55,893 nucleotides of DNA, from positions 1 through 55,893 of the IMG/VR virus record IMGVR_UViG_3300044630_003363; one strand, written 5' to 3'. The notes under the pieces were generated by a model. That model saw nothing but the letters and a program-made list of their open reading frames with translations, was not told where the DNA came from and searched no databases. Shown in pieces: positions 4,912-32,300 of the stretch (positions are counted from its first letter, which is position 1; each line of letters opens with the position of its first letter). The DNA is from a virus. The position numbers were made by a program, and so were the translations under genes.

Positions 4912-6390
4912 ATGAATAGTCAAAATATACTTAAATTTTGGGGTACACAAATGGATTTGAAGATTGATTCTTCAGAATATCATGATTATGAGGTATCCAA
5001 AACAGAATCGGATTACAATTCTGATGTGTTAAATATTAACACCACAATTAATTATTCTGGTTTAAGTGTAAACACCACAGGATTAACAAATGCGGATTGT
5101 GTTAGAAATACAATATCTTTAAATGAATTTGACAATACGGTTAATGACCCAACATATCCATATTCAGCATATACATGGACATTATCATATAGTGGTTTTA
5201 CCAACCAATTAAGTAATTCTGATACTATTTTAAAAAATGATGTTTATGAATTTATTAATAGTAGTGGTCAGACTCATTATTTTATTGAAAATGGATATAA
5301 TAATGCACTTTCAAATCCGTTTTCTTTAAATGTTACAGGATTTACAACGGGTTCTACCGTTGATTGTACTTTACAATTTTCAGGAACAGGGATAACGACA
5401 ACCATTTGTTGTCCAAGAGACCCAATTCCATCAGCAAAACCATGGGCGTACCAAATTAACCATGGTGCTGGTGTTAATAATTGTGATTATTCAGTTAAAA
5501 GAAGAACAGAAAAAGGATGGACAATTGATTTTGTTTTAAATAAGGATTCTCTCCCATGGTCTGACGGTAATGTCATATACTATCTTGGGGTTAGGAATGA
5601 ATCTGATATAGAGGATTACGCAGATAATAACTTATCTTTCTCATTTACTGATGATGGTAGACTTAAATGGACATCAATTCATTATTCGGGTATATGTAAT
5701 ACCTTATCGGGATACACGGAATCATATTATATTGCATCAGGACAAACATTACCATTATGTAATAATGGAACAAGTGATGATTTTAATATTACAATAACAT
5801 TTGATAGATACAGTAGATATACTGATTGTAATCTTGAAAATGATGGGGGTTGGAATGATTTAATTCCCGGAGTTAAGGTAATTCCATATGTACCAGAATC
5901 TGGTAGTTCAGTAACTTCAACACAAACCACAATTTATACTGAGGTTGAGGAATTAAATAAAAAATGGGCTGACGAGAAAGAAAGAAGATTAGGTATTTTA
6001 AAAATTTATTTAAACGGTAGACCAATATATAAATTAAAAGATTGGGAGGAAATAATTCCATCTGATAGAGGAGAACAACCTTTTATACAGTCATGGGGTT
6101 CAGGTACTCAATATGCCGGTGGTGTACATAATATGGGTACATCGTGTTTTAATTTTAAACAAATTCAATTTTATGAACAACCTTTAGATTTTGTACATGT
6201 TAGACACCATTATCTATCTGAAATAAAACCAAACTTTAATATTGTTGAGTGTAATGTGAACTGTGTTGACTCTGTTGTGGGGATTATTAATGTTACGCCA
6301 ACTCCTACTCCTACACCAACAAGAACCATCACACCAACACCAACAATATCGGTAACACCTACCTTTACACCAACACCAAGTACTTCGTAA
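4912..6390 (+). CDS. Putative fibre/surface protein: LamG-like domain with C-terminal Thr-Pro tail
   Basis: A 492-residue protein. The first ~170 residues are Asn/Thr/Ser-rich beta-type sequence with paired cysteines. Residues about 195-445 look like a concanavalin A/LamG jelly roll: GWTIDFVLNKDSLPW, LSFSFTDDGRLKWTSIHY, RRLGILKIYLNGRPIYKLKD, and a closing strand FKQIQFYEQPLDFVHV. Residues 462-492 form a Thr-Pro stalk ([17 protein letters not shown]...) ending STS. LamG-like folds bind glycans, so host-surface recognition is plausible but inferred. It is the first gene of the plus-strand group 4912-7724, behind a late-type box. Confidence 0.7.
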   Translation: MNSQNILKFWGTQMDLKIDSSEYHDYEVSKTESDYNSDVLNINTTINYSGLSVNTTGLTNADCVRNTISLNEFDNTVNDPTYPYSAYTWTLSYSGFTNQLSNSDTILKNDVYEFINSSGQTHYFIENGYNNALSNPFSLNVTGFTTGSTVDCTLQFSGTGITTTICCPRDPIPSAKPWAYQINHGAGVNNCDYSVKRRTEKGWTIDFVLNKDSLPWSDGNVIYYLGVRNESDIEDYADNNLSFSFTDDGRLKWTSIHYSGICNTLSGYTESYYIASGQTLPLCNNGTSDDFNITITFDRYSRYTDCNLENDGGWNDLIPGVKVIPYVPESGSSVTSTQTTIYTEVEELNKKWADEKERRLGILKIYLNGRPIYKLKDWEEIIPSDRGEQPFIQSWGSGTQYAGGVHNMGTSCFNFKQIQFYEQPLDFVHVRHHYLSEIKPNFNIVECNVNCVDSVVGIINVTPTPTPTPTRTITPTPTISVTPTFTPTPSTS

Positions 6391-6466
6391 AAAATAACTT
6401 CAAGTTTCATAAAACTTTAATTATACCTTCTTTTTATGTATCATTTACTAATTCATGTATTTTAAC

Positions 6467-6474: not shown

Positions 6475-6497
6475 TTTAAAGAGTCGAATAATCAATA

Positions 6498-7325
6498 ATG
6501 ACAACCATAATATTAACATCAAACAACTATAGTGGACAAACTGCGAACATTACTTATTATCCTGATACAGGTGGTACGATTAGCCTTGGCTCTGTCGTTG
6601 TCCCTTATTATTATAGTACTGACTATTTTTATGGTACTTATGAGTTATTTTTTCCAATATTTAACAAAACATGTACACTATATATTGAGTCACCTATACC
6701 TACCCCTACGGTTACACCTACTTTAACCCCAACCAATACTATCACGCCAACTTTAACAGTAACACCAACAAGAACTATTACTCCAACAATTACCCCAACC
6801 AATACTTTAACTCCAACTCCAACAAGTTCATTTAGTGCTGGTTTATATAAAACAACATATTCTGGTTATCATAACGAAAACCCAGCGTTTTTTGCAACAG
6901 CAACACCAACAACTTTTGGTGCTAATCCTGCCACATCGGTACAAACAACTTCAATAACTGAACCCGGAACTGATGACGGTACTAATTTTAGTTGTCAATG
7001 GTTAGGATATTTCAAACCAACAACAACAGAAACATACACATTCTTTTTATCAAGTGATGATGGTTCTTATCTTTGGATTGGTGCTAATGCTCAGTCAGGA
7101 TTTACCACCGCCAACTCTAACATAAACAATGGTGGAGCTCATGGAAATCAGGAGGTATCAGGTTCAGTTTCATTAACTGCTGGTGTCCTTTATCCAATAA
7201 GAATACAATTTGGTGAAATTGGTGGTGGTGATATTATGACATTTAATCATTCAACACCAACCATAACAAAAACAACAAATGTTACCGGTAAAGTATTTTA
7301 CAACCCTTCAACAAATGGATTTTAA
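6498..7325 (+). CDS. Putative adhesin: N-terminal beta domain, Thr-Pro linker, PA14/GLEYA-like domain
   Basis: 275 residues in three parts. Residues 1-65 are a short beta-rich head. Residues about 66-111 are a Thr-Pro stalk with TPT every four to six residues. Residues about 112-265 match a PA14/GLEYA carbohydrate-binding module: SCQWLGYFKPTTTETYTFFL, SSDDGSYLWIG, LTAGVLYPIRIQFGEIGGGD, then FNHSTPT. The 'SSDDGS' loop after the aromatic Y-T-F strand is the family signature, where Asp residues hold calcium and sugar. The order anchor-stalk-lectin suggests a receptor-binding tip or decoration. Neighbours on both sides are also virion-type. Confidence 0.8.
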   Translation: MTTIILTSNNYSGQTANITYYPDTGGTISLGSVVVPYYYSTDYFYGTYELFFPIFNKTCTLYIESPIPTPTVTPTLTPTNTITPTLTVTPTRTITPTITPTNTLTPTPTSSFSAGLYKTTYSGYHNENPAFFATATPTTFGANPATSVQTTSITEPGTDDGTNFSCQWLGYFKPTTTETYTFFLSSDDGSYLWIGANAQSGFTTANSNINNGGAHGNQEVSGSVSLTAGVLYPIRIQFGEIGGGDIMTFNHSTPTITKTTNVTGKVFYNPSTNGF

Positions 7326-12487: not shown

Positions 12488-13405
12488 ATGATGGATAATA
12501 AAATTGACATAAGAGAAAGACTAAAAAATATCACCATAGACCCATTGTGTAAAACATCGGTTACAAGGGAGATTATGATGCAAATCCAAAGAAATAATAC
12601 TTTAAAATTAAGAATTTCAAGGGAAATTAATAGGATGTTAGAGGAATTGTATACTCCATTAGGTTTGTGGGGTCAAAACCCACAATCACCAGATGAGGAT
12701 TTTGGTGTATTAGATAAAGATGGTAATTGGGGAATTCAAAATGTATTTGATACAAACTATTCTTGTCAAGAGGTTTTATTTAATAGATGTAATCTATCAA
12801 TTTTAAACTTATATAGAAAAAAAGGTATTGAAGATATTGAAATATTAGGTGAAACTTTTTCATATAGAAACCCAATAATTATTAATGATGAAACATTAAA
12901 AGATGAAAAAGAAACATTACATAGAATAAATAAATTACTAATATTAATTGATAATTCTAAAAGTAAAATATTTTTACCAGGTAGTAATATGTTTGATATT
13001 TTAATTAATATGTGTTCAAATACAATGTCAAGAGGGGATGAAACCCAAAAATTCTATGTTGATAACATATATGATTTCTTTGACGATATTATCGAGGTTA
13101 AAGCATTAGGTGGTCTTGGTAATTATGATGATAGAAAAAAAGGTATTGATGTTTGGACAAAACATGGTGATGAAAGAATATTAAAACACCAAATAAAAGG
13201 TACATGTGACTTAACATCAGTTAATGGTGGTTATTTAGTTAATTCAGCATTAAGTCAAACATCTAAATGTGATTTGTATGTTTTTGTTTGTGAAGACTAC
13301 AGAATACTTATATTAAAAAACAATAAAGACGAGATGGAATGGACTAAAGATGGTGTATTCTTTCCTTCAAACTTAAAATTTAATGAAAAATTCTATACCA
13401 AATAA
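12488..13405 (+). CDS. PD-(D/E)XK-like nuclease (restriction-endonuclease fold)
   Basis: 305 residues; start at one of two adjacent ATGs (12488 or 12491). The N-terminal half is helical. The C-terminal third resembles a restriction-endonuclease core: a charged loop GNYDDRKKGIDVWTKHGDE offers the acidic residue (Asp in GIDVW), and the next strand LKHQIKGTCDL supplies QxK in place of ExK, followed by a helix and the strand CDLYVFVCEDYRILILK. Q for E occurs in known members of this superfamily. No partner methylase is visible. It is transcribed towards a convergent SNF2 helicase and overlaps a 72-residue gene. A role in DNA processing, host-DNA degradation or counter-defence is possible; the fold call is by eye. 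Confidence 0.6.
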   Translation: MMDNKIDIRERLKNITIDPLCKTSVTREIMMQIQRNNTLKLRISREINRMLEELYTPLGLWGQNPQSPDEDFGVLDKDGNWGIQNVFDTNYSCQEVLFNRCNLSILNLYRKKGIEDIEILGETFSYRNPIIINDETLKDEKETLHRINKLLILIDNSKSKIFLPGSNMFDILINMCSNTMSRGDETQKFYVDNIYDFFDDIIEVKALGGLGNYDDRKKGIDVWTKHGDERILKHQIKGTCDLTSVNGGYLVNSALSQTSKCDLYVFVCEDYRILILKNNKDEMEWTKDGVFFPSNLKFNEKFYTK

Positions 13406-15900: not shown

Positions 15901-17139
15901 ATGGGAATACCTAAAAGAAAAAACAATATACAAGTTTACGGTCAACATGAAAATGAGGAAGGCTCAATTATTGGTAGAAGAAAAGAGTTATTAGAAAGAA
16001 TAACTAAATCTGACACTTATTTACCTGATTCGGTTCTACATGACGACCTTGACTTGGGTATGCTTAATTTTATTAAAGAACACTTCAAAGTTATTTCTGA
16101 TGGTAATCAAATTCCGATTATTCCAAAAATATTAACAATACAAAGATGGGGGGAATTTACCAATAATTGGACATTTTCAGATGATGACGGTAATATTAAA
16201 TTACCATTTATTGCAATTGTAAGAAAACCAGATGTTCAATTTGGTACAAATCCAGCAATACAAAGAACAATACCTGATAGAAGAGATTTTTTCTACGCTA
16301 GTGTTCCGACATGGGATGGTAATCAACTTGGTGCTGACATTTACAAAATCCCACAACCAATTGCGGTTGATATTACTTTTGATGTAACAATTGTTTGTAC
16401 AAAATTTAGAGACATAAATAAATTCAACAAGGTTGTTTTACAAAAGTTTTCATCTCGTCAATCATATACCTCCGTAAAAGGTCACTATATACCCATAGTG
16501 TTGGATAGAATCGAAGATAACACCCCAATGGATACTTTGGATGGTAGAAGGTTTTACATCCAAAATTACACCTTTACAATGTTAGGTTTCCTAATTGATG
16601 AAGAGGAGTTTGAAGTTAAACCCGCAATCAACAGGGTGTTGACTATGTTAGAAACTGATTTAAGTTCAAGTAGAACACCAAGACCTGAGATTAATCTATC
16701 GATAACAAGTTCATATTCAAGTGGTTCAATTGTTTCACAATATTCGGTGATTGCGTCTCGTAAAGTTGATAAAACGGTTGAGATTACATTTGATGATATA
16801 TTGGGTGTTACAACAGGAACTACAGTCACAATACCGGTTAAATTATTTATTGAACCTAAACAAATTTCAGGAACAACTGAATATACGGTTGCGGGTTCTT
16901 TTGGGAATTTAAACCAAACAAGTACTTTTAGTGGGTTAACTGTTGATACAATTGGGAGAAGTAATTTTAATTTTGTGACAACAAAAGGTTCGTCAACATT
17001 TACTCCAGCATTATCACCAACACCAACACCAACCATAACACCAACTATAACCATCACACCTACTATTACCCCAACAAGAACCATTACACCAACACCAACT
17101 AAAACTCCAACGATTACCCCAACTCCAAGTAGTTCTTAA
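15901..17139 (+). CDS. Tail completion / sheath-terminator protein, gp15-like, with Thr-Pro C-terminal tail
   Basis: 412 residues. The first ~260 residues resemble gp15-type tail terminators: IPKILTIQRWGEFTNNW, PFIAIVRKPDVQFGTNPA, IPQPIAVDITFDVTIVCTKF, DINKFNKVVLQKFSSRQSYT and RRFYIQNYTFTMLGFLIDEE. These are the mixed strands and the 'dInkf' helix used to form the hexameric ring. Residues about 262-360 add a beta domain rich in Thr and Ser, and residues 372-412 are a Thr-Pro tail ending PSSS. T4 gp15 is about 270 residues, so the last ~140 residues are an addition. It starts three bases after the gp14-like stop and precedes the sheath/tube genes, as in T4-like order. Confidence 0.65.
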   Translation: MGIPKRKNNIQVYGQHENEEGSIIGRRKELLERITKSDTYLPDSVLHDDLDLGMLNFIKEHFKVISDGNQIPIIPKILTIQRWGEFTNNWTFSDDDGNIKLPFIAIVRKPDVQFGTNPAIQRTIPDRRDFFYASVPTWDGNQLGADIYKIPQPIAVDITFDVTIVCTKFRDINKFNKVVLQKFSSRQSYTSVKGHYIPIVLDRIEDNTPMDTLDGRRFYIQNYTFTMLGFLIDEEEFEVKPAINRVLTMLETDLSSSRTPRPEINLSITSSYSSGSIVSQYSVIASRKVDKTVEITFDDILGVTTGTTVTIPVKLFIEPKQISGTTEYTVAGSFGNLNQTSTFSGLTVDTIGRSNFNFVTTKGSSTFTPALSPTPTPTITPTITITPTITPTRTITPTPTKTPTITPTPSSS

Positions 17140-17454: not shown

Positions 17455-20289
17455 ATGGCAAATTCAAATAGAGTATTTGTATCTCCTGGTGTATATACAT
17501 CAGAAAAAGATTTATCATTCGTAGCACAAAGTGTTGGGGTGAGTACATTGGGGTTAGTGGGGGAAACTTTAAGAGGTCCCGCTTTCGAACCAATTTTAAT
17601 AACAGATTTCGATTCATTCAAATTATATTTTGGGGGAACATCACCGGAAAAAGACGGTAATAATAATCCAAAATATGAACTACCTTATGTTGCAAAAGCG
17701 TATCTTCAAGAATCAAATCAACTATTTGTTACAAGAGTTCTTGGATTAACAGGATATAAACCAGTTAAAACATTTGCGATTAAAACAATCGGTGGTGTTG
17801 AGGTTGGAGGATTAAGTGGAACCACAACGGGAACTACAATCCCATCAACAACAGGTATTACAGGTAGTACTTTCTACACTTTCTTATCAGATAAGAAAGC
17901 TTACGACGGAAATACCATTACTGATTATATGGTAACATTCTATAGTGGTTTTACATCAGGTAATACCGGTAATTGGTTTGTTTTGGGTAATGTACCATTT
18001 TCAGGAACATCGGGTTTAACAGGTACTGAAGTCATTTCACCATTAACAGGTTTAAATAACGCAGATAACTATAATTCAAAAGAGTGGTATAATACATTAG
18101 TTAATACGGCTGGTACAGAAGTTTATTCATTCGTATTCGTTTACAATAGTGGTACAAGTCTATTTGATGTAACAAGATATACATATAGTGCTACCACATA
18201 TAGTGATTATGATGAACAAGTTGTTGCATCATTTAGGTCAAGAGGTTCATATGTTGGTCAAACTTTAAATTTAGAAGTTACAGGAAATACTAACTTTAAT
18301 ATTTCGGGTTCGGATTTAGTGGTTAACCCATTATCTGAATTTACAATCAATGTAACGGGAGCAACAAGTGGAGCAAAAACATTTACATGTAGTTTAGATA
18401 CTACATCATCAAAATATGTTACTAAAGTATTGGGTGTTGATGTATTTGATAAATCAAAAGGAGATATTCCGATTTATGTTTATGAATCTTATCCAAAATA
18501 TTTACTACAAGCTTTTCAACAAGGTTACATTAGAGGTATCAGTTTAACTGAAGTTTACAACTCAGAGGGTACTAACTTCTTAACGGAATGGGATACACCG
18601 ATGTCACCAACAGTTGTTTCTGAAGTTAGAGGTGGTAATGTTGCAGATTTATTTGAAATAATTACAATTTCTGACGGTGAAGACGCTAACACACAACTTA
18701 AAATTTCAATTATTAATATTAATGTTGATACATACGAATTCGATATGTTAGTTCGTGAATACTATGATACCGATGATAACATGGTTGTTCTTGAAAAATT
18801 CACAAGATGTTCAATGAATCCAGATGTTCCGGGATATATTGCTAAAAAAGTGGGTACATCTGATGGTGAATATGAATTGAATTCAAAATACATTATGTTG
18901 AATATGTCTAATAACCACCCAACAGATGCATACCCAGCAGGTTTTAAAGGATTTGTAAATAACTCAAACTTTGGTGGAACAACTTTAGGTTCTGTAATGT
19001 ATAAAACTGATTATTATGTGGCTGGTGATACTACAGGTTATAACTCTGACGGTTCACCAATTTCATCTTCGGGAGATAAAATTAGAAAAGTATGTTTAGG
19101 TTTCTCAACTCAAACGGGTTATGATGACGATTTGTTAAAATATAAAGGTAAAGCGGCACTTAATACAACTAAAGGTTTCCACTTATCAACAAACGCATCT
19201 ACAATCACAGGTACAACATATATAACAACACCTTATGATTTAGAAGGTCAACCAGCAGGTAGTGTAATAAGTGATATCAACTATCGTAAATTTACATTAG
19301 CATTATGTGGTGGATTTGATGGTTGGGATATCTACAGAAATATAAGAACTTATGGAGACAATTATATCTTCGGTAAGAAAACTTATGTTTCAGGTAACAC
19401 AACTAATGGTGGTGTGTTTAGTATAGCGGCAGGAAATAGTGATTATTACGCATATGTTAGAGGTATTGATACTTTTGGAAATCCTGAAGCAGTTGATATT
19501 AACATATTTGCAACTCCTGGTATTAACTTCTACGACCACAGTTCACTAACTTCTTATTCAATCGATATGGTTGAACAAGATAGAGCGGATTCACTTTATA
19601 TAATTGGTTCACCAAATTATAGTACGGTTGATGAGGTAGTTGATGCATTAGATGGTGTGGCAATGGATACAAACTATTCAGCCACTTATTTCCCTTGGAT
19701 TCAAGTTAGGGATGTGGATAACGCAACTCAACTTTATATTCCACCAACAGGTGAGGTTGTAAGAAATATAGCATTAACTGATAATGTATCGTTCCCATGG
19801 TTCGCAGTAGCGGGTTATTCAAGAGGTTTAGTGAAATCAATCAAAGCGGTTAAGAAACTAACACTTGATGAAAGAGATGAACTTTACAAAAATAGAATCA
19901 ATCCAATTGCTACTTTCTCTGATACAGGTACAATTATTTGGGGTAATAAAACTCTACAAGTAAGAGAATCTGCACTTGATAGAATAAATGTAAGAAGATT
20001 ATTATTAAGAGCAAGAAAATTAATTTCAGCGGTAGCGGTTAGATTAATATTTGAACAAAATGACGAAGAGGTTCGTAACGAGTTCTTGAGGTTAGTAAAT
20101 CCGATATTGGACGCGATTAAGAGAGAAAGAGGTCTTTATGATTTCCGTGTAACGGTTTCAAGTGACCCAGCTGATATAGATGCAAATACAATGAGAGGTA
20201 AAATATTTATTAAACCTACTCGTTCACTTGAATTTATTGATGTTGAGTTCGTAATAACACCAACAGGAGCTTCATTTGACAATATTTAA
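17455..20289 (+). CDS. 18: Contractile tail sheath protein (gp18-like)
   Basis: 944 residues against about 660 for T4 gp18. The N-terminus has the sheath signature VSPGVYTSEKDLSFVAQSVG followed by GLVGETLRGPAFEPILITDF. The C-terminal ~250 residues carry the polymerising sheath domain: AVAGYSRGLVKSIKAVKKLT, NPIATFSDTGTIIWGNKTL, INVRRLLLRARKLISAVAVR and the closing strand SLEFIDVEFVITPTG. Between about residues 110 and 350 there is a Gly/Thr/Ser-rich beta insertion absent from minimal sheaths, probably outward-facing decoration. The sheath surrounds the tube and contracts to drive it through the envelope. It is followed by a hairpin and a 300-base non-coding region before the tube gene. Confidence 0.97.
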   Translation: MANSNRVFVSPGVYTSEKDLSFVAQSVGVSTLGLVGETLRGPAFEPILITDFDSFKLYFGGTSPEKDGNNNPKYELPYVAKAYLQESNQLFVTRVLGLTGYKPVKTFAIKTIGGVEVGGLSGTTTGTTIPSTTGITGSTFYTFLSDKKAYDGNTITDYMVTFYSGFTSGNTGNWFVLGNVPFSGTSGLTGTEVISPLTGLNNADNYNSKEWYNTLVNTAGTEVYSFVFVYNSGTSLFDVTRYTYSATTYSDYDEQVVASFRSRGSYVGQTLNLEVTGNTNFNISGSDLVVNPLSEFTINVTGATSGAKTFTCSLDTTSSKYVTKVLGVDVFDKSKGDIPIYVYESYPKYLLQAFQQGYIRGISLTEVYNSEGTNFLTEWDTPMSPTVVSEVRGGNVADLFEIITISDGEDANTQLKISIININVDTYEFDMLVREYYDTDDNMVVLEKFTRCSMNPDVPGYIAKKVGTSDGEYELNSKYIMLNMSNNHPTDAYPAGFKGFVNNSNFGGTTLGSVMYKTDYYVAGDTTGYNSDGSPISSSGDKIRKVCLGFSTQTGYDDDLLKYKGKAALNTTKGFHLSTNASTITGTTYITTPYDLEGQPAGSVISDINYRKFTLALCGGFDGWDIYRNIRTYGDNYIFGKKTYVSGNTTNGGVFSIAAGNSDYYAYVRGIDTFGNPEAVDINIFATPGINFYDHSSLTSYSIDMVEQDRADSLYIIGSPNYSTVDEVVDALDGVAMDTNYSATYFPWIQVRDVDNATQLYIPPTGEVVRNIALTDNVSFPWFAVAGYSRGLVKSIKAVKKLTLDERDELYKNRINPIATFSDTGTIIWGNKTLQVRESALDRINVRRLLLRARKLISAVAVRLIFEQNDEEVRNEFLRLVNPILDAIKRERGLYDFRVTVSSDPADIDANTMRGKIFIKPTRSLEFIDVEFVITPTGASFDNI

Positions 20290-20607: not shown

Positions 20608-21096
20608 ATGGCAGATTTATTAATGAAAATGCCGGTTCCATACGAACCGAAAAGAGTTAACCGTTTCATACTAAGATTTCCCTCTTCATTGGGTATCAAC
20701 GAATGGTATGTAGCATCAACGGCAAGACCAAGCGCAAAAATCAATTCAGTAGCAATACCGTTCATTAACACATCAACTTATGTTGCTGGTAGATTCGAAT
20801 GGAATGAACTAAGAGTAACATTTAAAGACCCAATTGGACCTTCAGCGTCACAAGCGTTGATGGAATGGTTCCGTTTACACGCGGAGTCAGTAACGGGTCG
20901 TATGGGTTACGCAGCGGGTTATAAGAAAGACATTGAATTAGAAATGTTAGACCCAACGGGAGTTGTGGTTGAAAAATGGATTCTTCAAGGTACATTCTTA
21001 ACTGATTTGAACTTCAACGAACTTGATTATTCGAGAGATGACATTGCAACTATCACAGCGTCTTTACGTATGGATAGATGTATTCAAGTTTACTAA
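20608..21096 (+). CDS. 19: Tail tube protein (gp19-like)
   Basis: 162 residues, the same size class as T4 gp19 (163). NRFILRFPSSLGINEWYVAS at the start and the segments SVAIPFINTSTYVAGRFEWN, VTFKDPIGPSASQALMEWF and WILQGTFLTDLNFNELDYSR are typical of the tube beta-barrel and its inter-ring loops. Subunits stack as hexamers to form the DNA channel inside the sheath. It directly follows the sheath gene in order, though separated by the 318-base regulatory region with its own box, which allows separate and stronger expression. A terminator follows. Confidence 0.96.
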   Translation: MADLLMKMPVPYEPKRVNRFILRFPSSLGINEWYVASTARPSAKINSVAIPFINTSTYVAGRFEWNELRVTFKDPIGPSASQALMEWFRLHAESVTGRMGYAAGYKKDIELEMLDPTGVVVEKWILQGTFLTDLNFNELDYSRDDIATITASLRMDRCIQVY

Positions 21097-21230: not shown

Positions 21231-21980
21231 ATGGAAGAATTTAGAATTGACCCCACGATACAATATGATGTTGTGGAATTACCTTCAAGAGGTATTCATT
21301 ATACAAGTAATAAAAAATCACTTAGAGTAGCATATTTAACCGCTTCAGATGAAAATATTCTGTCTGCACAGAATTTAATTCAAAATAATACTGTAATAGA
21401 TGAACTTCTAAAAAGAAAAATTTTAGATAGGGATTTTATTGTTGACGAAATTGCGGATGAAGATAAACAGGCTGTTTTAATCTTTTTAAGAAGTACCGCT
21501 TTTGGTCCCGAATATACATTTTATCTTAATGATTCAAAAACGGATAAAGAATTTACTGCAATTGTTGATTTAAGTGAAATATCATTTAGAGAATTTAAAC
21601 TTGAACCAGATGCAAATGGAGAATTTAAATATGTTATGCCAAAATCAAACATTGAAATCACATTTAAATTCTTAACTCCAAAACAACAAAAAGAAATTGA
21701 TGAAATAGAAAAAAGTTGGAATGGGAACGGTGTACCACCAATTGTTACAAAACAACTTGAAATGATGATTAAGACCGTAGCTGGTAATAAGGATATGATG
21801 AACATTAGAAACTTCATTGAAAAATTACCAATCAAAGATTCACAAGATTTTAGAAAATTCATTAAAGAAAACAAACCAAGTTTAGACCTAAAAAGAGAAG
21901 TAAACACCCCGTCAGGAGACAAAATCCAAGTTGAAATTGGGTTCGGGGTGGAGTTTTTTCGCCCTTTCTACGGATTATAA
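21231..21980 (+). CDS. Tail/baseplate assembly chaperone, gp26-like (zero-frame product)
   Basis: 249 residues in the zero frame. The start (IDPTIQYDVVELPSRGIHYT) and the run VAYLTASDENILSAQNLIQN, DEIADEDKQAVLIFLRSTAF, FGPEYTFYL match the T4 gp26-type baseplate family (LPSrG, 'tt.dE.il', 'D+..il..lR..aFG.eY'). It lies immediately before the tape measure gene, the classical place of tail-assembly chaperones. The frame ends seven codons after a T-run at 21954-21959, and an open +1 frame continues for 49 codons, so a second, longer product is expected. It sits behind a terminator. No exact TATTTATA box was seen, only TTTATATAG about 25 bases upstream. Confidence 0.85.
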   Translation: MEEFRIDPTIQYDVVELPSRGIHYTSNKKSLRVAYLTASDENILSAQNLIQNNTVIDELLKRKILDRDFIVDEIADEDKQAVLIFLRSTAFGPEYTFYLNDSKTDKEFTAIVDLSEISFREFKLEPDANGEFKYVMPKSNIEITFKFLTPKQQKEIDEIEKSWNGNGVPPIVTKQLEMMIKTVAGNKDMMNIRNFIEKLPIKDSQDFRKFIKENKPSLDLKREVNTPSGDKIQVEIGFGVEFFRPFYGL

Positions 21981-22110
21981 AAAAGGTCAATTAGACGAAA
22001 TTTTATTCTTAGTAAAAAGAGGATTCTCCTATGGGGATATCATGGGTATGCCTGTCTACATTAGAAGGTATTATATTAACTATCTTATTGAGATAGAAAA
22101 TAAAACTTAA
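21945..22110 (+). other. Programmed +1 frameshift and C-terminal extension of the chaperone
   Basis: The zero frame reads GAG TTT TTT CGC (21951-21962). Sliding the P-site Phe-tRNA one base forward from TTT to TTC gives GCC as the next codon and an open frame of 49 codons to TAA 22108-22110. The extension includes DYKKGQLDEILFLVKRGFSY and GDIMGMPVYIRRYYINYLIE, a helical 'F-Y-x-x-I-x-x-MP-x-x-x-R' module like short phage hub-assembly chaperones. It has no start codon near its beginning. GGGGTGGAG (21945-21953) is a Shine-Dalgarno-like tract ending three bases before the slip codon, as in bacterial prfB, and CGC is a little-used Arg codon here. The predicted fusion is 292 residues. The shift is inferred from sequence. 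Confidence 0.75.
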
Positions 22111-22123: not shown

Positions 22124-24019
22124 ATGGCTGATAAATTAAAACAATATGCTGATAATAATGATTTAACAAAATTCTCAAATGAATGGAGAGTCGTTAAAAA
22201 TATTCAACCAAACGACAATACTGACTATAGTCAAAGAATTTTAAATGACTTTAACATGTACAAATCATCTAATGGTAATTCAGCAACTGACACAAAAAAT
22301 AGTGGTGTAATATCCACGATGTCCGATATTCAAAATTTTAGTTCCTCGGTAAAAAGTTATACCACGGGAGGTTCTAGAATTGAACCATCCGTAATAATAG
22401 AAACTGTGTCGGATGTGGTTAAAGGATTTTTTAGTGAAAAGGGTTCTATTGGTGGAGGTATTAAAAACTTAATAGGAATTGGAATTGAAAAATCACTTGG
22501 CGGAATAAAAGACATATTAAAGGAACAAGTAAAATTACACAATGATGTAAATTCCGCTCTTAGTATATCTGGTGATATGTCACAAGCTCTAAGGGATAAC
22601 ATTAGAGATACTATTCAACCCGCGGCCGCATTTGGTTATGAATTAGAAGATGTTTCAAATACCGTAATTAAAATGATGATGGAAACCGGTAGGTTATCAT
22701 CATTTAGTTCCGAAGTAATGGGGAAATTACCATCAGTTTCAAGAGCATTTGTTGAAGAGATGGGAATATTAGGTACTTATTTCAGACAATATGAATTAGT
22801 TGGTATATCAGCCGAAAACACATTAGACTCAATTGAAAAAGGAGGAGAATCTTCATTAAGATTGGGATTAAATGCAAGAAAAGTAGTTAAAGAAACTGCA
22901 GACAATATTGGTAGAATTAATGAATTTGGATTTTCTAAAGGTACTGACGGTTTAAATCGAATGGTTCAAAAGTCGGTTGAGTTTAGAATGAACATGAATA
23001 GTGTTTTTAAACTTGCTGAAGATGTTTTTGACCCCGATAAAGCGATAAATTTATCGGCTAATTTACAAGCAATTGGTGGTGCAATTGGAGATTTCAATGA
23101 CCCATTAAAACTAATGTATATGGCAACAAATAATGTTGAAGGATTACAAGATGCATTAATTGGTGTTGCGGGTTCGTTAGCCACATATAATAAAGAACAA
23201 GGTAAATTTGAACTTACAGGTGTTAATTTAAGAAAAGCGAGAGCGTTGGCTCAAGAACTTGGTGTTGATTATAAAGAATTATCTAATAGTGCAATTGCTT
23301 CGGCGGAAAGGTCGGCAGCTGCAACTGAATTAATGGCTAGAGGTTTAGATTTAAAACCTGAACAAAAAGAATTTTTAACCAACATTTCAAGAATGAAAGA
23401 TGGTAGAATGGTAATTGATGTTTCAAATATGTCAGACCAATTCCGAGGGTTAAAAGAAATTGCATTAGGTGAATTAACTGATAATCAAAAAGAAATATTA
23501 TTAAAAAATCAGGAAGCGTTTAAAGCAATGTCAACTGAAGATATTGCAAAGGGACAATATACTGAAACACAAAAAATGGCATTAAATGTTGCTGAGATTG
23601 GTGCGATGTTAAAAATTCAATTTGCTAAAGCAATTAATCCATCTTTGAGAGGTGTTGACAATCAGATTGCCAAAGCAAATGAATACATAACCCAAGCACT
23701 AAAAGGAAAAGGTGAGGGAGGAAAAGAGGTTGAGAGAATAAAATCGGAAGCACAAAAAATGGCGGATGATGAATTAAAGGTGAAAACCAAAAAACAAGAA
23801 GCAACCAAAGTTGATAATTCATCAACATCAAAAACCGAAGAACCAAAAAATAGTAATGGACTTCCGGTTGGATGGTCGGTTATGACTGTTAATCATAAAA
23901 TGTCAAGTGATTCGGTTGTTTTTGACGAGGTAAAACGAGGATGGCAAACGACATTGGATGGACTAAACCCACAAGAATATACTGGTAAAATGTGGGGAGG
24001 TGGTGGTGGAAGTTGGTAA
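22124..24019 (+). CDS. Tape measure protein (gp29-like)
   Basis: 631 residues, largely alpha-helical. A Gly/Ile-rich segment at about 100-135 (SIGGGIKNLIGIGIEKSLGG) is a possible membrane-interacting part. Long helices follow with Ala-rich heptad-like stretches such as LRKARALAQELGVDYKELSN and SAERSAAATELMARGLDLK. The C-terminus is Lys/Glu-rich and ends in a poly-Gly stretch (GGGGGSW). Tape measures set tail length inside the tube and leave with the DNA. At 631 residues it is close to T4 gp29 (590), which predicts a T4-size tail. It directly follows the frameshifting chaperone, the conserved order in long-tailed phages. Confidence 0.8.
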   Translation: MADKLKQYADNNDLTKFSNEWRVVKNIQPNDNTDYSQRILNDFNMYKSSNGNSATDTKNSGVISTMSDIQNFSSSVKSYTTGGSRIEPSVIIETVSDVVKGFFSEKGSIGGGIKNLIGIGIEKSLGGIKDILKEQVKLHNDVNSALSISGDMSQALRDNIRDTIQPAAAFGYELEDVSNTVIKMMMETGRLSSFSSEVMGKLPSVSRAFVEEMGILGTYFRQYELVGISAENTLDSIEKGGESSLRLGLNARKVVKETADNIGRINEFGFSKGTDGLNRMVQKSVEFRMNMNSVFKLAEDVFDPDKAINLSANLQAIGGAIGDFNDPLKLMYMATNNVEGLQDALIGVAGSLATYNKEQGKFELTGVNLRKARALAQELGVDYKELSNSAIASAERSAAATELMARGLDLKPEQKEFLTNISRMKDGRMVIDVSNMSDQFRGLKEIALGELTDNQKEILLKNQEAFKAMSTEDIAKGQYTETQKMALNVAEIGAMLKIQFAKAINPSLRGVDNQIAKANEYITQALKGKGEGGKEVERIKSEAQKMADDELKVKTKKQEATKVDNSSTSKTEEPKNSNGLPVGWSVMTVNHKMSSDSVVFDEVKRGWQTTLDGLNPQEYTGKMWGGGGGSW

Positions 24020-24089: not shown

Positions 24090-27000
24090 ATGCCAACTTA
24101 TTTAGATTTTGATACCAGTAGGAACAAATCGGGAATACCTGACTCCAAGGACGGTTTTAGAGATTACTTAATCGCTAGAACTCTTAATGTACCTAATGGT
24201 CCTCAGACTTTTACTAATGCGAATTACGCAGTACAAAAACTAAGGGATATGTCAAACCAAGATTTGGGTGGTGTACCTTCCTTTAGTGTTAGTGCTCCAT
24301 ATTTTGATTTAAGTGCTAATTTATATGGTATTGATGAACCTAATGGTGTACCAAGAGAATATAGTGATTTATCCTTACCATCACTTGCATTATTAAATAA
24401 TGGATTTATTGCTAAAGGTTATTCTAATTCATTTATTAAAGAAGATACTAATTTAGTTAGTATTATGTCGGGACAAAAATTTGATAATGATTCAAGGTTA
24501 ATGAAATTTGCTACGAGTAATATTCGTGACAACAAACAAGGTCCCGTTTTTTCAAGAATACAAAGAAATTTAGAGGCAGCAACTATTGGTAGAGTTAGAG
24601 TTATTGACGCATTAAATGGAAACACCGCAACCGCATTAAATTTATTAACTGGTAGAGAACCTTTAATTGAATTTAATAATAGAGTTACCGTATCCTCAAC
24701 TTTATTAGGTAAGGGTGTTGATTTTTTACAAACAGTTGTTGGAACACAGTTACCATTTAGTGAAATTCCGGGTGATTATTTATCAAACCCAAGAAACCCA
24801 ATTGAAAATAGACCTGAAGCTAGAACTCAAGTTGGAGCTATTTTACAAGATGTTACAGGAGTTATAGGTTCAATGGTTGGAATACAAAGAAGACCAAAAA
24901 TTACAAGAAAACCTTCCGATTTGTTTATTGAATATATGGGTCAAGGACCAAAACAGTCTTTATTTGATTTATTAACATATTCAAAATACGCACCAAATTA
25001 CACAACAACAGCTAGGTCACAACAATCATCTAAAATATTTCAATTTGCAGATAGGGTTGGAGAAGGTATCAAAAACTTATTAGGTCTTGAAGCACCAAAA
25101 GGACTAGCATACATGGGTGATGACAGAAGTAATGATGTTAGACACACAATGTCCGACTTTAATGATAATGTTGTTAAAAGTAGTTATTATCTTAGTTTAA
25201 TGTTTGACCCTGTTGCTGCATCATTATTTGAAAGAAAAAGAAGTATTTCACAAGGAGGTCAGATTGGTGGTAAACTAACATGGATTAGTCGTAATTCTAT
25301 AAATAAATTAGGAGCAAATAATGCCGAATGGGAATCTGAAAGTGGAAAATTAAATGAATCACTATCAACAAAATTTGGTTTTAGACAAGATTCGATATTA
25401 GATAAAACACAACAACTATTGGATTCAATGCCAAAAGGTGGTGAAGGTTCTCGTACTCATGTTGGTAATGTAATTGACCAAACAAGTAGAATCTTTAAAG
25501 AAGGTGATACAGTAATGTCGAGAGGTTCAAATATTAAATATACAGATAAATTTTCAGGAGAAGAAACTGGTGTTGAATACTGTAGAGTATGGACAAAAGA
25601 TAGGTCTTACATGAACTATTCTGATACCATGAAAAGAACCGCAAACATTAGAAAGTTTGATGATAGTGTTTTAGGAGGAGAAAGTAGAGTTTGGAATATA
25701 AATTATGCTCCAATGTCCGATGGTAATAAAAATTTTGAAGGAGTATCAACAAACATATTTAAACAAGGTGATGGATTCTATGCTAAAAAATATATGTTTT
25801 CAATTGAAAACTTAGCTTGGAAAACTTCAAATACTCCAGGATTTACATATAATGATTTACCATATTGTGAAAGAGGAAACAATGGTGGTAGGGTTATGTG
25901 GTTTCCACCATATGATTTAAAAATTAGTGAAAATAATAGTGCTAGATGGAACGATAATACTTTCTTAGGTAGACCCGAACCAATTTACACATATCAAGAT
26001 ACAAGTAGAACAGGACAATTATCTTTTAAAGTTGTTGTTGACCACCCAAGTATATTAAACTTATTGGTTAGAGAACACTTTAAGAATATGAATGATGATG
26101 AGGCGGATAATTACATTGATGCATTTTTTGCTGGATGTATAGACCTCGACTTTTATGCTCTTATAAGAAAATATGCTCATTTAGATTCAAGTGATATCTC
26201 AATGATAAAAGCATTCTTAAATAACAATAAAGAACCCGATGCTATATTGGAATATATGCCGGCAGTTGATAGTCCTGTTAATTTAGACCCAAGTGGTGGT
26301 GGTAATGGTAGTAGTTCGGGTAAAGATGATAATAAAATTAGTGTTAAAAACATTAATTTAAAATATGCAAACGATATACCTGGACCGAATCTACAAACAT
26401 TAAAATCTCCTAATAAATACTCTGATTTATATACATCATTTATAACCCCTTCAGGTTCTACTGAATACCAAGATACACTTGTGAGTCTTTTACAATTGAT
26501 GACAGGAAAAACAGACCCACAAATTATTTTAGAAACTTCTTATGTTTTTGGTACTAAAAAAACAAATGGAGCAACTCCCCCTGTTGTTTCAATAACAGAT
26601 AGTGAAATCGGAGAACAAAAAACTAAAATTGCGGGATATTTTACTGAGGCTAAAAAAAATTACGAAACTTATATTAGTGCGTTAAACGAACTTAAAACCA
26701 ACTTAGGTAATAATACAACTGGTGATATTACAATAGAAATTGAGTCTTCGTGTTCTTCAGTTGCTACAACTCAATACAATGAAAAATTAGCATTAAGAAG
26801 AAGTCATAGTATTATACAAGACATTTTCAATATAATTAAATCGGGGTCAACTATTCCCAAAATTCAATGGGTGGAGGGTAATGAAATAATACCAACAAAC
26901 AAAACTAACTCAGATAATGATATAGTTTTAATTGAAAAGGGTAAACCAATTAAAATAACAAAAGAATATAATATTAAAGATTTAGGATACACAAGTAACT

Positions 27001-29018
27001 CTACGGGTAAAATTATTATTAAAACAGTAAATTACGGTGAGAACTTTACAGGTGTAAATCCTAACGAATTGGATTGTAAAGGAAAAGAATTTATAAATGA
27101 TAAAATAATAGTTAATGGAAAAAGTTTAAAAGAATATTCACCTATAGCATTTTATTGTAGACAATCTAAGTTTAGTGTGGATTATACCAATAAACCAATT
27201 CCCGAAACACCTAAACCAACACCAATACCTGAACCTGTTAAACCTGTTACTATAACCGTACCTGGTAAACCATCAAGAAAACCGGCAATTGACCCAATGA
27301 AGAGAATTATTATGAAAACTCTTTCTGAATGTCATTACTTTAAAAAACTTGAGGAGGATTCTCCACTTCAATTTAAATCTCTAAAAGAAAAATTAAAATA
27401 TTTTCATCCCGGTTTCCACTCAACAACACCCGAAGGATTAAATGCTAGATTAACATTTATGCTTCAATGTATTAGACCGGGAGATACTATACCTGTTAAG
27501 GGTATTGCCGACCAAAATGATGTAGCGGCAAGAAATACATCATTCGGACCTCCACCTGTTTGTGTTTTAAGAATTGGTGATTTTTACCATTCAAAAATTA
27601 TAATAAGAGATGTAAACATTTCATACGATGATAATGTTTGGGATTTAAATCCTGAAGGTATTGGAGTACAACCAATGATTGCTAATGTTACATGTTCAAT
27701 CGCATTTATTGGTGGTCAAGGATTGTCAAAACCCGTTGAGAGATTACAAAACGCATTATCATCTAATTTCTTTGCTAATACTGAAATGTATGATGAAAGG
27801 TCAATAGCAACGAATGAAACAATTGGTGGTAAACCAGCGGCTGAGTTTACCAAAACATTTTTAGAATCTCTTAATATTCCATCACAAGTCTCACCAAAAG
27901 CAGACCCAAATCCTAAGACTAACAACATCAATGAAAGTTATATTGCAGCAGAACAAAACTTACCTGAATTAGTCTACACAAAAAATATTGATGAGGTGTT
28001 TACAAAAACCAAGAACTATTTTGACAAATATGTTAGTACATATAATAATGTAGTTACAAAATATGGTACTGAAATTAGTACAATGTTACTACACCCAAAT
28101 TATAGAGAAATAAAAAATTATGACATTTACACATTAACTAGTTCAACGCCAGGAAAAACATTACAGTTATTTGGATTAACTAAAAAAGGACTAGAAACTG
28201 ATTTTTTATTAAAGGGTCTTGAAGTTGGATTAGTAAATTTTATAGATAATTCATCAACAACTTATTTATCTGAAATGTTAGGTTTTGAAAAAGAAATATC
28301 GGGTTCAATATCGGGTTCAAAATTAATAGACATGAATGAAAAAATATTAAAACCATTCTTTTCTACTTTAACCCAAACAGTATTAGATGAAATTAGTAAT
28401 GAAAATTTATTAACAGAACTTGAATCAAATAGAAATGCTTTAGTTAAATCTCTTGATAGTGTTAATTTCATTGTAAAATTTTCAAAAGATAGTTTTGTAA
28501 AGGATACAAAGGTTACAACATCTACATTATCTGGGTTCACATCTGATTTACTATATAATGAATATAAAACATGTATTGAATATATTGAAACAAATACACC
28601 AAAAATGTACGAAGATTTAAATAGTACTGTTAGTTTAGTTAACCCAATTATCACTCAATTACAATTTGAAGGAATAATGAAACAATTACTTTTCACAAAA
28701 TATAGTGATGTTGAAAATTACTTTAATAATAAACCATCAGCACCATATAGTAATTTATTAAAAATAGATTCGACTTTATACCCCGAAAAAACTGTAAAAA
28801 AATTATTAAAAAGAGTTGAGAAATTTAACGAACCAACAGATAAAAAGAAATTTAAATTTACAACCTTTAAAAATAGAAAAAGTAGTAAAGACATTAAATT
28901 TAAAATAAATGTAACTGCAGTTGAAACTGATGCAACAATTATTGAAGAATCAAATAAAGTACATTCAGATAATTTGGAAGTAAAAGATAATAAACTTAAT
29001 TACTATAGAAAAACATAA
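24090..29018 (+). CDS. Giant tail-tube initiator/baseplate protein (gp48/gp54-like core) with OmpA-like segment
   Basis: 1642 residues. The region about 590-700 (MWFPPYDLKISENNSARWND, TFLGRPEPIYTYQDTSRTGQ, LSFKVVVDHPS) and the region about 1160-1240 (GPPPVCVLRIGDFYHSKIII, then NPEGIGVQPMIANVTCSIAF and GGQGLSKPVERLQNAL) resemble tube-initiator proteins of the T4 gp48/gp54 type, which cap the hub and nucleate the tube. About residues 885-915 read SSVATTQYNEKLALRRSHSI, like the 'YNxxLSxRRAxxV' helix of OmpA-type peptidoglycan-binding domains. A Pro-rich linker (about 1035-1060) and a helical C-terminal 400 residues follow. T4 gp48 is about 360 residues, so this is a large fusion or expansion. 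Its stop overlaps the gp53-like start (TAATG). Confidence 0.65.
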   Translation: MPTYLDFDTSRNKSGIPDSKDGFRDYLIARTLNVPNGPQTFTNANYAVQKLRDMSNQDLGGVPSFSVSAPYFDLSANLYGIDEPNGVPREYSDLSLPSLALLNNGFIAKGYSNSFIKEDTNLVSIMSGQKFDNDSRLMKFATSNIRDNKQGPVFSRIQRNLEAATIGRVRVIDALNGNTATALNLLTGREPLIEFNNRVTVSSTLLGKGVDFLQTVVGTQLPFSEIPGDYLSNPRNPIENRPEARTQVGAILQDVTGVIGSMVGIQRRPKITRKPSDLFIEYMGQGPKQSLFDLLTYSKYAPNYTTTARSQQSSKIFQFADRVGEGIKNLLGLEAPKGLAYMGDDRSNDVRHTMSDFNDNVVKSSYYLSLMFDPVAASLFERKRSISQGGQIGGKLTWISRNSINKLGANNAEWESESGKLNESLSTKFGFRQDSILDKTQQLLDSMPKGGEGSRTHVGNVIDQTSRIFKEGDTVMSRGSNIKYTDKFSGEETGVEYCRVWTKDRSYMNYSDTMKRTANIRKFDDSVLGGESRVWNINYAPMSDGNKNFEGVSTNIFKQGDGFYAKKYMFSIENLAWKTSNTPGFTYNDLPYCERGNNGGRVMWFPPYDLKISENNSARWNDNTFLGRPEPIYTYQDTSRTGQLSFKVVVDHPSILNLLVREHFKNMNDDEADNYIDAFFAGCIDLDFYALIRKYAHLDSSDISMIKAFLNNNKEPDAILEYMPAVDSPVNLDPSGGGNGSSSGKDDNKISVKNINLKYANDIPGPNLQTLKSPNKYSDLYTSFITPSGSTEYQDTLVSLLQLMTGKTDPQIILETSYVFGTKKTNGATPPVVSITDSEIGEQKTKIAGYFTEAKKNYETYISALNELKTNLGNNTTGDITIEIESSCSSVATTQYNEKLALRRSHSIIQDIFNIIKSGSTIPKIQWVEGNEIIPTNKTNSDNDIVLIEKGKPIKITKEYNIKDLGYTSNSTGKIIIKTVNYGENFTGVNPNELDCKGKEFINDKIIVNGKSLKEYSPIAFYCRQSKFSVDYTNKPIPETPKPTPIPEPVKPVTITVPGKPSRKPAIDPMKRIIMKTLSECHYFKKLEEDSPLQFKSLKEKLKYFHPGFHSTTPEGLNARLTFMLQCIRPGDTIPVKGIADQNDVAARNTSFGPPPVCVLRIGDFYHSKIIIRDVNISYDDNVWDLNPEGIGVQPMIANVTCSIAFIGGQGLSKPVERLQNALSSNFFANTEMYDERSIATNETIGGKPAAEFTKTFLESLNIPSQVSPKADPNPKTNNINESYIAAEQNLPELVYTKNIDEVFTKTKNYFDKYVSTYNNVVTKYGTEISTMLLHPNYREIKNYDIYTLTSSTPGKTLQLFGLTKKGLETDFLLKGLEVGLVNFIDNSSTTYLSEMLGFEKEISGSISGSKLIDMNEKILKPFFSTLTQTVLDEISNENLLTELESNRNALVKSLDSVNFIVKFSKDSFVKDTKVTTSTLSGFTSDLLYNEYKTCIEYIETNTPKMYEDLNSTVSLVNPIITQLQFEGIMKQLLFTKYSDVENYFNNKPSAPYSNLLKIDSTLYPEKTVKKLLKRVEKFNEPTDKKKFKFTTFKNRKSSKDIKFKINVTAVETDATIIEESNKVHSDNLEVKDNKLNYYRKT

Positions 29019-29344
29019 TGAGTAGAGAATATTTTGATAGATACCAATTTTTCATCGATGATGGTAAATTTAGGATTGTTCCTGGGTTGGAACTACCTAT
29101 TAAAACAACCGATAAATATGTTTTTTATAAAAGAGGTAAGGATAGATTAGATAAACTTTCACAAGACCATTATAATACACCAATTTTTGGTTGGTTGATT
29201 TTGTTAGCAAACCCGACTGCGGGTAGTATTGAGTTTACCATACCTGATAATTTTTTAATGAGAATACCGTTTCCATTGGTTGTGTCTTTACAAGATTACA
29301 AAAGAAGTGTAGAATTGTATAACCTATATTATGGAGAACAATAA
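29018..29344 (+). CDS. 53: Baseplate wedge protein gp53-like (LysM-like)
   Basis: 108 residues. The motif series DKYVFYKRGKDRLDKLSQDH, YNTPIFGWLILLANP and the late FLMRIPFPLV is that of gp53/LysM-like baseplate proteins: a strand, 'DRLDxLA' helix, 'W-x-I/L-L-x-A-N' helix and 'lRIP' strand. In contractile tails this protein ties the wedge to the hub. It is translationally coupled on both sides: TAATG with the initiator-like gene upstream and a 14-base overlap with the hub gene downstream. Confidence 0.85.
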   Translation: MSREYFDRYQFFIDDGKFRIVPGLELPIKTTDKYVFYKRGKDRLDKLSQDHYNTPIFGWLILLANPTAGSIEFTIPDNFLMRIPFPLVVSLQDYKRSVELYNLYYGEQ

Positions 29345-32300
29345 AGATTTATCAAATAGTGAGAACATACTTGTTAAAGTAGACCAAAACAATCTAATAT
29401 TTGTTGACCCAAATAGTGTAGTTGATAGTGACGGTGCCATTCAACCAAGGGGAATAAAACAGGAAAATTTAGTAATGTATGTGAACTTGGAAGCTGATTT
29501 AGTTCCGAGAACAACACTTATTGCTGATGGTGGACAAGGAAACACTCTTCTTAGTATAGCAAAAGGAAATTTAAACTTCCTAAAAAATCAAACAGGTGAC
29601 GGCAATTTTAATACTTCATGGTCTGAAGCGTATAATCCAGCACAACCGACAGATGCTAATGGAAACACCAAGCCGTTTGACCCAAATCAATTTATAGATG
29701 ATTCTGGACAAAGTTTTGGTATTGATTCTATTTCAATATCGGTAAAAGGGGCAACCTTTGTACCCCAAGCAACAATAAATTTTGTTGATGTAAGAGGTAA
29801 AACATTATTTGAATCGGCATATAATTCTCCATATAAAGCATTTTTTCATCTTCCTTGGCCAATATTTTATTTAACGGTTAAAGGATATTACGGTAAAGCT
29901 ATTAGATACCGTCTTCATATGACAAAATTTTCATCTAGATTTAATGAAAGTAATGGTAATTTTGAAGTAACAACAACATTTGTTGGTTCTACATTTGCTT
30001 ATTTAAATGATATTTCATTATCATCAATTGCTAATTGTCCTTACATGTATTTGGTTGAAAAACTTGAAGACAAAAAATGGAATGAGTCAAAAGGAAGATA
30101 TACAAAAAATGTTAATAGAAGTTCAAGGGGTTACTCAATATTAAAATCAATCTATGAACAGTATGAAAATAGAGGGTTAGTTCCAAAAGGAACATTTATA
30201 AGAGGTAACGAACCAGTTAAAACATTAAAAGATATTGGGTATATCGCCGAATCTTTAGATAAGATTTTAGAAAAACAAATTTTTAATAGTGTTGTTGATA
30301 TGAAGGTATTCCAAGGAATAAAAGAAATTGGTGAAACCCTTACGGATTTTGAAACCTCAATTAAGGGGTGGGGAAAATTATATCTATCAAATACAGATTT
30401 TGTTCCATATCCCACAACAACAGTTAATGGGGTGGTATCGATTGAAAATTGGTACTATTATTCCGGTAAAGATAAAAACAGTACAGAAAAGTTATTAGGT
30501 AAGGATATTCAAGGGACATTAGAACAGCTACTTAATTTATATACCACAAAATTAAATAGTTCAACATTACTAACTAACGATATTAAAAAGGATAATAACA
30601 AACCTGCAATAGATAAAAGTAAGGTTAGAGCGGATTTTAAAAAGGTGGCAATAAAAAAAATACAGTCTATTTCTGCGTATTATAAAACTATTGATAATGG
30701 ATTTATATTAGTTGGTATTGATAATTTAATTTCAGACATATATGAAGTAATCAAATCATTCGAAGAACAAAAAAATATTTTGGAGGATGATGTTGAAAAA
30801 CAAATGAACATCATCATTAAAGACCCAAAACAAGGGTTTGGATTTGAACCAACAATAAGAAATATTTTTGCAATACTATTGGCAAACGCTGAAGTTTATA
30901 TTAGATTAATGAAAGAGGTACACACTAATTCATTTGATTCATCGAAAGATAGAGCAAAAATTATTGGTAACTTAAATAAAGAGAATAAAGGGGATGCTAT
31001 ATTTCCATGGCCTGAGGTTAGAAAACCGGTGGCAATGGGTAAACAAAATGTTGTGGCATATCCCGCTGAACCCGAACTAATAGATAGATTAAAATCAAAC
31101 GATAAAGTTTTATGGCCAGAGGTTGAGTTTGTTGAGGAATATATGAAAATCGTAACAGGTAGGAAAGATACTAATGTAAAAAAAGAACCTACTGTTAGTG
31201 ATATTGAATATTTGTTTGAATCGGATATTGATTATTCATCAATTAATGATATATCTGGAGTAGATATTATTACCGACATTGTACCATATACCGACAAAAC
31301 AAACGCATCATTTGTGTATGAAATATATGAAAGAGCCAAATATCTTACATTATTTGATTCCTTCAATAATAACCTTCTAAGACTTTTGGTTCAAGAGGAG
31401 AAAAAGAATATTGAAACGGTAATTAAGGATGATACAGATTTAATTAATTTACTTAAAAAATTTAACACAGGTATACCAAGTTTAATTAATGGGACTAAAA
31501 CCTCAGTAATTCCAAATGGAACAACAACACCAGAAGAAAAAATAATATTTAATGGTCTTTTACCTTCATTATCCCCATATGAGAGATTTAATTATTTTAG
31601 AGACCATATACCAACAACAAACTACATTAAAGATGTACTTGACGAACCTTTTAAATTTACATCAAATTATTCACAGTCTTTTAACACACTCAGTAGATTA
31701 GGTACTAAAAAATCTATAGATTCGGAAGATGAAATAAATAATATTCTAAAAAATTACGAACCTGAACAATATAGACCTTCTATTTACCCATTCAACTCAG
31801 ATACCTATTTGGGTTATTTAAAAAAGAATAGTACAGCAAATCCAAAAGTTACGGGTTCAACATTTACGATTGATGATTTAAAATATAAAGGTACATCAAA
31901 TACCGGAATATTTCGAGTTGACTCAACAATAGGATTTATTGTTACACCATCAAATCCAAAATCATGGGTTCAAAGTGGATACATAGATAATATGTTTCTA
32001 AAACAAATGGTTAATAAAGATGTCACAACAACAGTTAGTATTCTTAATACTCCATATTTTCACAAACAATTATATTCTGATTTTAACAAAGATGAACAGT
32101 ACGGGAGATATGCGGGTTCAGCTTATTTACTTTTAAATTCATTACCATTTTTAAATTTGGATGATAATATTACATTTGATGGTAAAACCATTTTAATGTC
32201 ATCTCTTTTTAGAGAAATGTCATCAACACATTTTGTTCCGTATCATTTATTATTAAAATGGGGTTCAATATATCACAGATACAAGAAAAAAATATTAGAC

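Follow-up and report, generated by a model that had tools for sequence, protein, structure and literature searches.

A putative tail assembly chaperone gene of the T4 gp26/gp51 type with a conserved and probably programmed +1 frameshift before the tape measure gene

The window analysed here is a whole stretch of viral DNA of 55,893 nt (IMG/VR record IMGVR_UViG_3300044630_003363). It carries a series of tail genes in which a gene for a putative tail assembly chaperone, similar to gp26 of phage T4 and with two overlapping reading frames at its 3' end, lies between the tail tube gene and a gene in the position of the tape measure. The features of this region are:

17455-20289, plus strand: tail sheath gene, 944 aa (phrog_23, 2.5e-58)
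20608-21096, plus strand: tail tube protein gene, just upstream of the chaperone gene (phrog_4542, 3.8e-23)
21231-21980, plus strand: frame-0 open reading frame, short form of the T4 gp26-like putative tail assembly chaperone, 249 aa (PF12322 and phrog_150 matches, AF2 model)
21945-21949, plus strand: GGGGT element, its GGGG invariant in the window clade, that could pair with the anti-SD (ACCUC, one G.U; conservation, pairing energy)
21954-21962, plus strand: putative shift site TTT_TTT_CGC, conserved in the window clade, where peptidyl-tRNA-Phe would move from UUU (21957-21959) to UUC (21958-21960) with the rare codon CGC in the A site
21961-22110, plus strand: +1-frame module (ALSTDYKKGQLDEILFLVKRGFSYGDIMGMPVYIRRYYINYLIEIENKT), predicted C-terminal part of the long form (fused translation, conservation, alignment with the gp51 C-terminus)
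21978-21980, plus strand: frame-0 stop codon TAA closing the short form (relatives likewise have TAA or TAG there)
22124-24019, plus strand: 631-aa gene in the tape measure position (position; weak blastp match to the corresponding Mel-JY01 protein, 5e-4)

The frame-0 product has the C-terminal end ...IGFGVEFFRPFYGL, followed by the stop, and the +1 frame that overlaps it is open from 21904 to 22110 (68 codons). A first-pass annotation had described this arrangement, with frame 0 ending at 21980 and a +1 frame open to 22110 without its own start, and its coordinates are right: this frame contains no ATG or GTG near the junction and no usable start, and its sole TTGs, which precede the first +1 codon by 27 and 21 nt, show no conservation. 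The frame overlap reads GGG GTG GAG TTT TTT CGC CCT TTC TAC GGA TTA TAA, in which GAG TTT TTT CGC occupies 21951-21962 and GGGGTGGAG occupies 21945-21953, ending three bases before the second TTT, exactly as that annotation had located it relative to the slip codon. Fusion at the second TTT would yield a protein of 292 aa with the predicted junction ...EFFALSTDYK... (in a longer stretch, ...GVEFFALSTDYKKGQ...) and the predicted tryptic junction peptide IQVEIGFGVEFFALSTDYK. The tape measure gene expected downstream was called in the window by its position and the weak match to Mel-JY01, and the annotated tape measure found at the corresponding place in immuto and LIS04 bears this expectation out.

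Profile searches assign the frame-0 product to PF12322 (T4_baseplate, 1.7e-6) and phrog_150 (baseplate hub, 4.5e-9). The fused product covers positions 17-281 of 282 of the latter and frame 0 alone positions 17-233, while T4 gp26 and gp51 cover positions 14-235 and 13-280 of the same profile, respectively; the +1 module alone gave no phrog_150 match. The two T4 genes are located as follows:

L085 (T4), 5803-6429 and 6480-7229: genes 26 and 51, members of one family, whose ends coincide with the ends of the short and long frameshift products

Single-sequence hhalign comparisons with gp26 or gp51 were not significant, and we therefore built a nine-member gp51 profile. When a profile of 54 fused family members was compared with it, the alignment crossed the junction with E=6.6e-5, against 0.0088 for the best among 60 column shuffles. 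Taken by itself, the module was placed at the gp51 C-terminus, residues 219-244 (E=0.0022; best shuffle, 0.016), which makes homology of the +1 module to this C-terminus suggestive, not decisive. The AF2 structure model, which covers the short form, has a pLDDT of 88.5 and its BFVD matches are gp26 and hub proteins of many phages, whereas the PDB match of highest probability is a weak one, to the HK97 tail assembly chaperone 2ob9 (prob 0.44, E about 1.2). Rab/Ras GTPases, the sole PDB matches in profile searches, involved a short helical stretch and were taken as chance. The window protein is thus a member of the T4 gp26/gp51 family, gp26 corresponding to the short form and gp51 to the long form. 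T4 belongs to the same family but possesses two paralogous genes and no frameshift; its gp26 ends in ..KEFFELL and neither frame gives a continuation, in agreement with the first-pass remark that T4 is not known to use such a shift. According to a statement in PMC10885494, which cites Vladimirov et al. 2022, T4 meets the same need with the paralogous genes 26 and 51. By analogy with lambda G/GT, gp26 and gp51 probably act jointly in T4.

Even if the shift is real, the protein might be a component of the baseplate hub instead of a G/GT-type tape-measure chaperone, as the 'baseplate hub' names in the databases and the genetic work placing gp26 in the hub, cited in a 2010 review on T4 (PMC3004832), would have it. 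However, the same review names gp26 and gp51 hub assembly chaperones and reports that gp51 is absent from the particle and essential, its function being unknown as of 2010 (PMC3004832), and both the gene position and the short/long architecture of the window gene match G/GT. We therefore consider a hub component rather unlikely, and a chaperone the more appropriate description of the putative function.

The +1 relation between the two frames extends well beyond the window. A first scan of viral contigs recovered 80 relatives, with identities down to ~57%, and every full-length match among them was 1 mod 3 nt long, that is, in the +1 relation. Together with further scans seeded with Flavobacterium phage immuto, a huge-phage member, Bacillus SP-15, RM378, GXN1, and Mel-JY01, we collected 278 loci, 139 of them non-redundant and with a complete junction. 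In 132 of these 139 junctions the +1 frame continues for 40 codons or more beyond the frame-0 stop, in 3 others it stays open until the contig ends, and 4 are closed. All +1-open members checked (131/131) have, in their last frame-0 codons, UUU then Y or CUU then U, the most frequent sites being UUU_UGG (77), UUU_CGN (27), CUU_UGG (19), and UUU_UAC (3), in addition to a few others; the Listeria member LIS04 has UUU_UUU_AGU. The +1 form is present in phages recorded from Flavobacterium, Rhodothermus, Microcystis, Bacillus, Streptococcus, and Listeria as well as in a 484-kb uncultured phage, and the annotated records of immuto, Mel-JY01, SP-15, RM378, GXN1, and LIS04 leave the two frames unjoined. 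The first-pass proposal of a programmed +1 shift in a gp26-like tail assembly chaperone gene just upstream of the tape measure gene is well supported by this conserved open frame, and the conservation of the re-pairing codon across relatives likewise favours the putative sliding of Phe-tRNA from UUU to UUC that it had envisaged.

For the analysis of selection we used 27 representatives of the window clade that share less than 95% identity. They were collected with a regular expression that presupposes the site motif and missed the L036 group, but every readable clade member of the unfiltered listing, that group included, has the same site, GGG GNN GNN TTT TTT CGN CCT TTC, with UUU then CGN at the frame transition. 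Among the 27 representatives, the strongest synonymous constraint of the gene falls on codons 239-249, which correspond to the shift site. Downstream of the frame-0 stop, codon positions 1, 2, and 3 of the +1 frame show 3888, 2337, and 7130 substitutions, and codons with a single change comprise 4086 synonymous versus 1548 non-synonymous cases in the +1 frame, pairwise counts that are non-independent and show a direction without a p-value. Judging from these substitution patterns, the +1-frame module is under purifying selection. Its conserved residues start at the slip codons. The third bases of the CGN codons vary, so that frame 0 retains Arg but the +1 frame encodes A, V, or D, which fits selection for UUU_CGN itself.

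Every readable window-clade member has a run of six T at this site, so that transcriptional slippage might generate mRNAs one U short and, from them, the fused protein. Against this, the same +1 architecture occurs without such a run (TTT CTT TGG, TTT CTA TTC, and GAA TTC TTT CGT), some relatives having no more than 3 T in succession, and the conserved feature is the re-pairing codon with its A-site neighbour. Since many relatives do not have the T-run, we regard homopolymer slippage as very unlikely. The alignment of homologues that the first-pass annotation had called for confirmed the +1 junction in general; the T-run was found in the readable members of the window clade but is absent in many other relatives, and the G-tract held as GGGG in the window clade, whereas GGAG was not conserved.

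The four closed junctions (L089, L182, L185, and L201) act as natural controls. In L089, L182, and L185 an ATG immediately downstream of the stop opens a separate gene for the module, an arrangement consistent with the module being a separate protein, made from its own start codon through translational coupling. The first-pass annotation had considered that frames found as separate genes with starts would contradict a shift; they occur in only these 3 of the 139 junctions, whereas 132 keep the +1 frame open. Moreover, 7 of the 27 window-clade representatives have no +1-frame ATG, GTG, or TTG from the upstream stop to 75 nt past the junction, none of the starts is conserved, conservation in the +1 frame sets in at the slip codons, and two split-gene relatives no longer have intact Phe-Phe slip codons (TTC TTG in L182 and TTC CTT in L185). 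An independently started module is therefore highly improbable for the window gene. Although a lone frame break near a 3' end is a typical error signature, the idea of a sequencing error or decayed gene in one contig is refuted by the relatives, which show the same +1 relation in >130 non-redundant contigs and in the isolated and finished genomes of immuto, Mel-JY01, SP-15, RM378, GXN1, and LIS04; on this comparative evidence the +1 overlap is neither sequencing error nor chance.

A T4 gp26/gp51-type chaperone gene with a programmed +1 shift that yields a short and a long form is, very probably, the best overall explanation. Translation in frame 0 would yield the short form of 249 aa. Some ribosomes would slip +1 with peptidyl-tRNA-Phe on the second UUU and a slowly read CGC waiting in the A site; the tRNA would re-pair with UUC and the ribosome would add the C-terminal module of ~50 residues, giving the long form of 292 aa. 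The tape measure and tail tube proteins would be the targets of the short form together with a smaller amount of the long form, as they are for lambda G/GT and probably for T4 gp26 plus gp51. Per 1000 codons, the window has CGC 0.43 times and CGN 5.4 times; in place of CGN, relatives have UGG, which a single tRNA decodes. RNA structure 3' of the shift site showed nothing unusual (z -0.14). UUU_CGN is a known +1 motif, TTT-CGN having been named as a +1 motif of eukaryotic viruses (PMC7230728).

The upstream GGGG element probably aids the shift through anti-SD pairing. In the window clade the Gly codon at this element is GGG in 26 of 26 cases, compared with 33 of 262 Gly codons (12.6%) elsewhere in these genes, and the predicted anti-SD pairing peaks at GGGG (mean -6.5 versus a local background of -2.1 kcal/mol). 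The immuto clade has GGG in 28 of 41 Gly codons at the element and in 54 of 592 elsewhere. Several other family members lack the element, which would thus be at most a clade-specific helper. The first-pass annotation had recognized here the geometry of prfB, and part of this comparison stands: the invariant GGGG of the window clade could pair with the anti-SD, and both systems share putative P-site slippage on a pyrimidine-UU codon and a G-rich element upstream, with the CUU_UGG relatives resembling CUU_UGA. The rest does not hold: few relatives have GGAG, the distance from the end of the invariant G-run to the slip codon is 5 nt (taking the first TTT) or 8 nt (taking the second) instead of 3, and no stop codon occupies the A site, which contains CGN or UGG in nearly all relatives. 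In contrast with prfB, there is a sense codon at that place and no autoregulation. The class of +1 sites formed by UUU_CGN and [UC]UU_UGG is therefore a better description than the prfB geometry. Bacteroidia have an SD-like +1 shift site in prfB (PMC8710568), which makes a role of GGGG possible if the host belongs to this group.

In the fourth closed junction (L201), GAT TTT TTC contains the -1 heptamer U_UUU_UUC and the -1 frame is open. Agrobacterium phage Atu_ph07 (L288) and the PA5oct-like Pseudomonas phage Paride (L289) have the same -1 form, with U_UUU_UUC at the same Phe-Phe. These three members resemble the window gene in their gp26-like frame ending in Phe-Phe and in a similar C-terminal module, but differ from it in carrying this classic -1 heptamer; their sequences indicate a switch in shift direction inside a single family. 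A wider scenario, which we advance tentatively, is that one Phe-Phe slip site of the gp26/gp51-type family is used both ways, +1 (UUU_UGG, CUU_UGG, UUU_CGN) in phages of Bacteroidota, Firmicutes, and cyanobacteria and -1 (U_UUU_UUC) in proteobacterial jumbo phages, that the T4 gene pair and the split-gene relatives are later replacements, and that [UC]UU_UGG represents a widespread bacterial +1 site absent from known motifs.

As in lambda gpG/gpGT, a short and a long product would derive from one gene by a programmed shift near its 3' end, with the tail tube and tape measure genes as neighbours; position and a conserved 3' frameshift, as read from the sequence, would place the window gene among G/GT-type chaperones. 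By contrast, lambda shifts -1 and the window gene +1, and we found no sequence similarity of the window protein to lambda gpG. According to PMC5009743, the G/GT shift is conserved among long-tailed phages, T4 being the exception, and is very likely +1 in HSTV-2. For the tail chaperones of HF1-group haloviruses, a +1 shift at TTT-CGC before the tape measure gene was proposed by the authors without experiment (PMC7230728). These haloviruses and HSTV-2 (PMC7230728, PMC5009743) resemble the window gene in a proposed +1 shift that uses the same UUU_CGC and precedes the tape measure gene, but they infect archaeal hosts and are likened to it by shift site and position. The UUU_CGN +1 site in tail chaperones has thus already been suggested, and the T4-type family of bacterial phages adds a variant.

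Such a shift would bring T4-type tail chaperones under the frameshift rule of most other long-tailed phages and would give T4 gp26/gp51 a direct test, as a single frameshifting gene should replace both. It would also provide a set of bacterial +1 sites, with >130 distinct natural variants and natural controls, for forward slippage without a stop codon. The arrangement, whose long form is missed by gene finders, is broad, unannotated in the phage records examined (immuto, Mel-JY01, SP-15, RM378, GXN1, and LIS04), and directly testable.

Other window genes whose ends overlap open shifted frames (42432-44291 and 12488-13405) looked like neighbour-gene overlaps or chance. The first of them encodes a ribonucleotide reductase (phrog_367, 1.2e-129) and is followed by a small Cys-rich +1-frame open reading frame (KRGFCCNSGCRHCPYKKDL). 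Very large genes follow the tape measure position at 24090-29018 (1642 aa, without PHROG match) and 29331-35258 (1975 aa). The tail sheath protein (17455-20289) has a long insertion relative to the phrog_23 profile (496 positions), and the protein encoded at 15901-17139 possesses a C-terminal Pro-Thr repeat tail.
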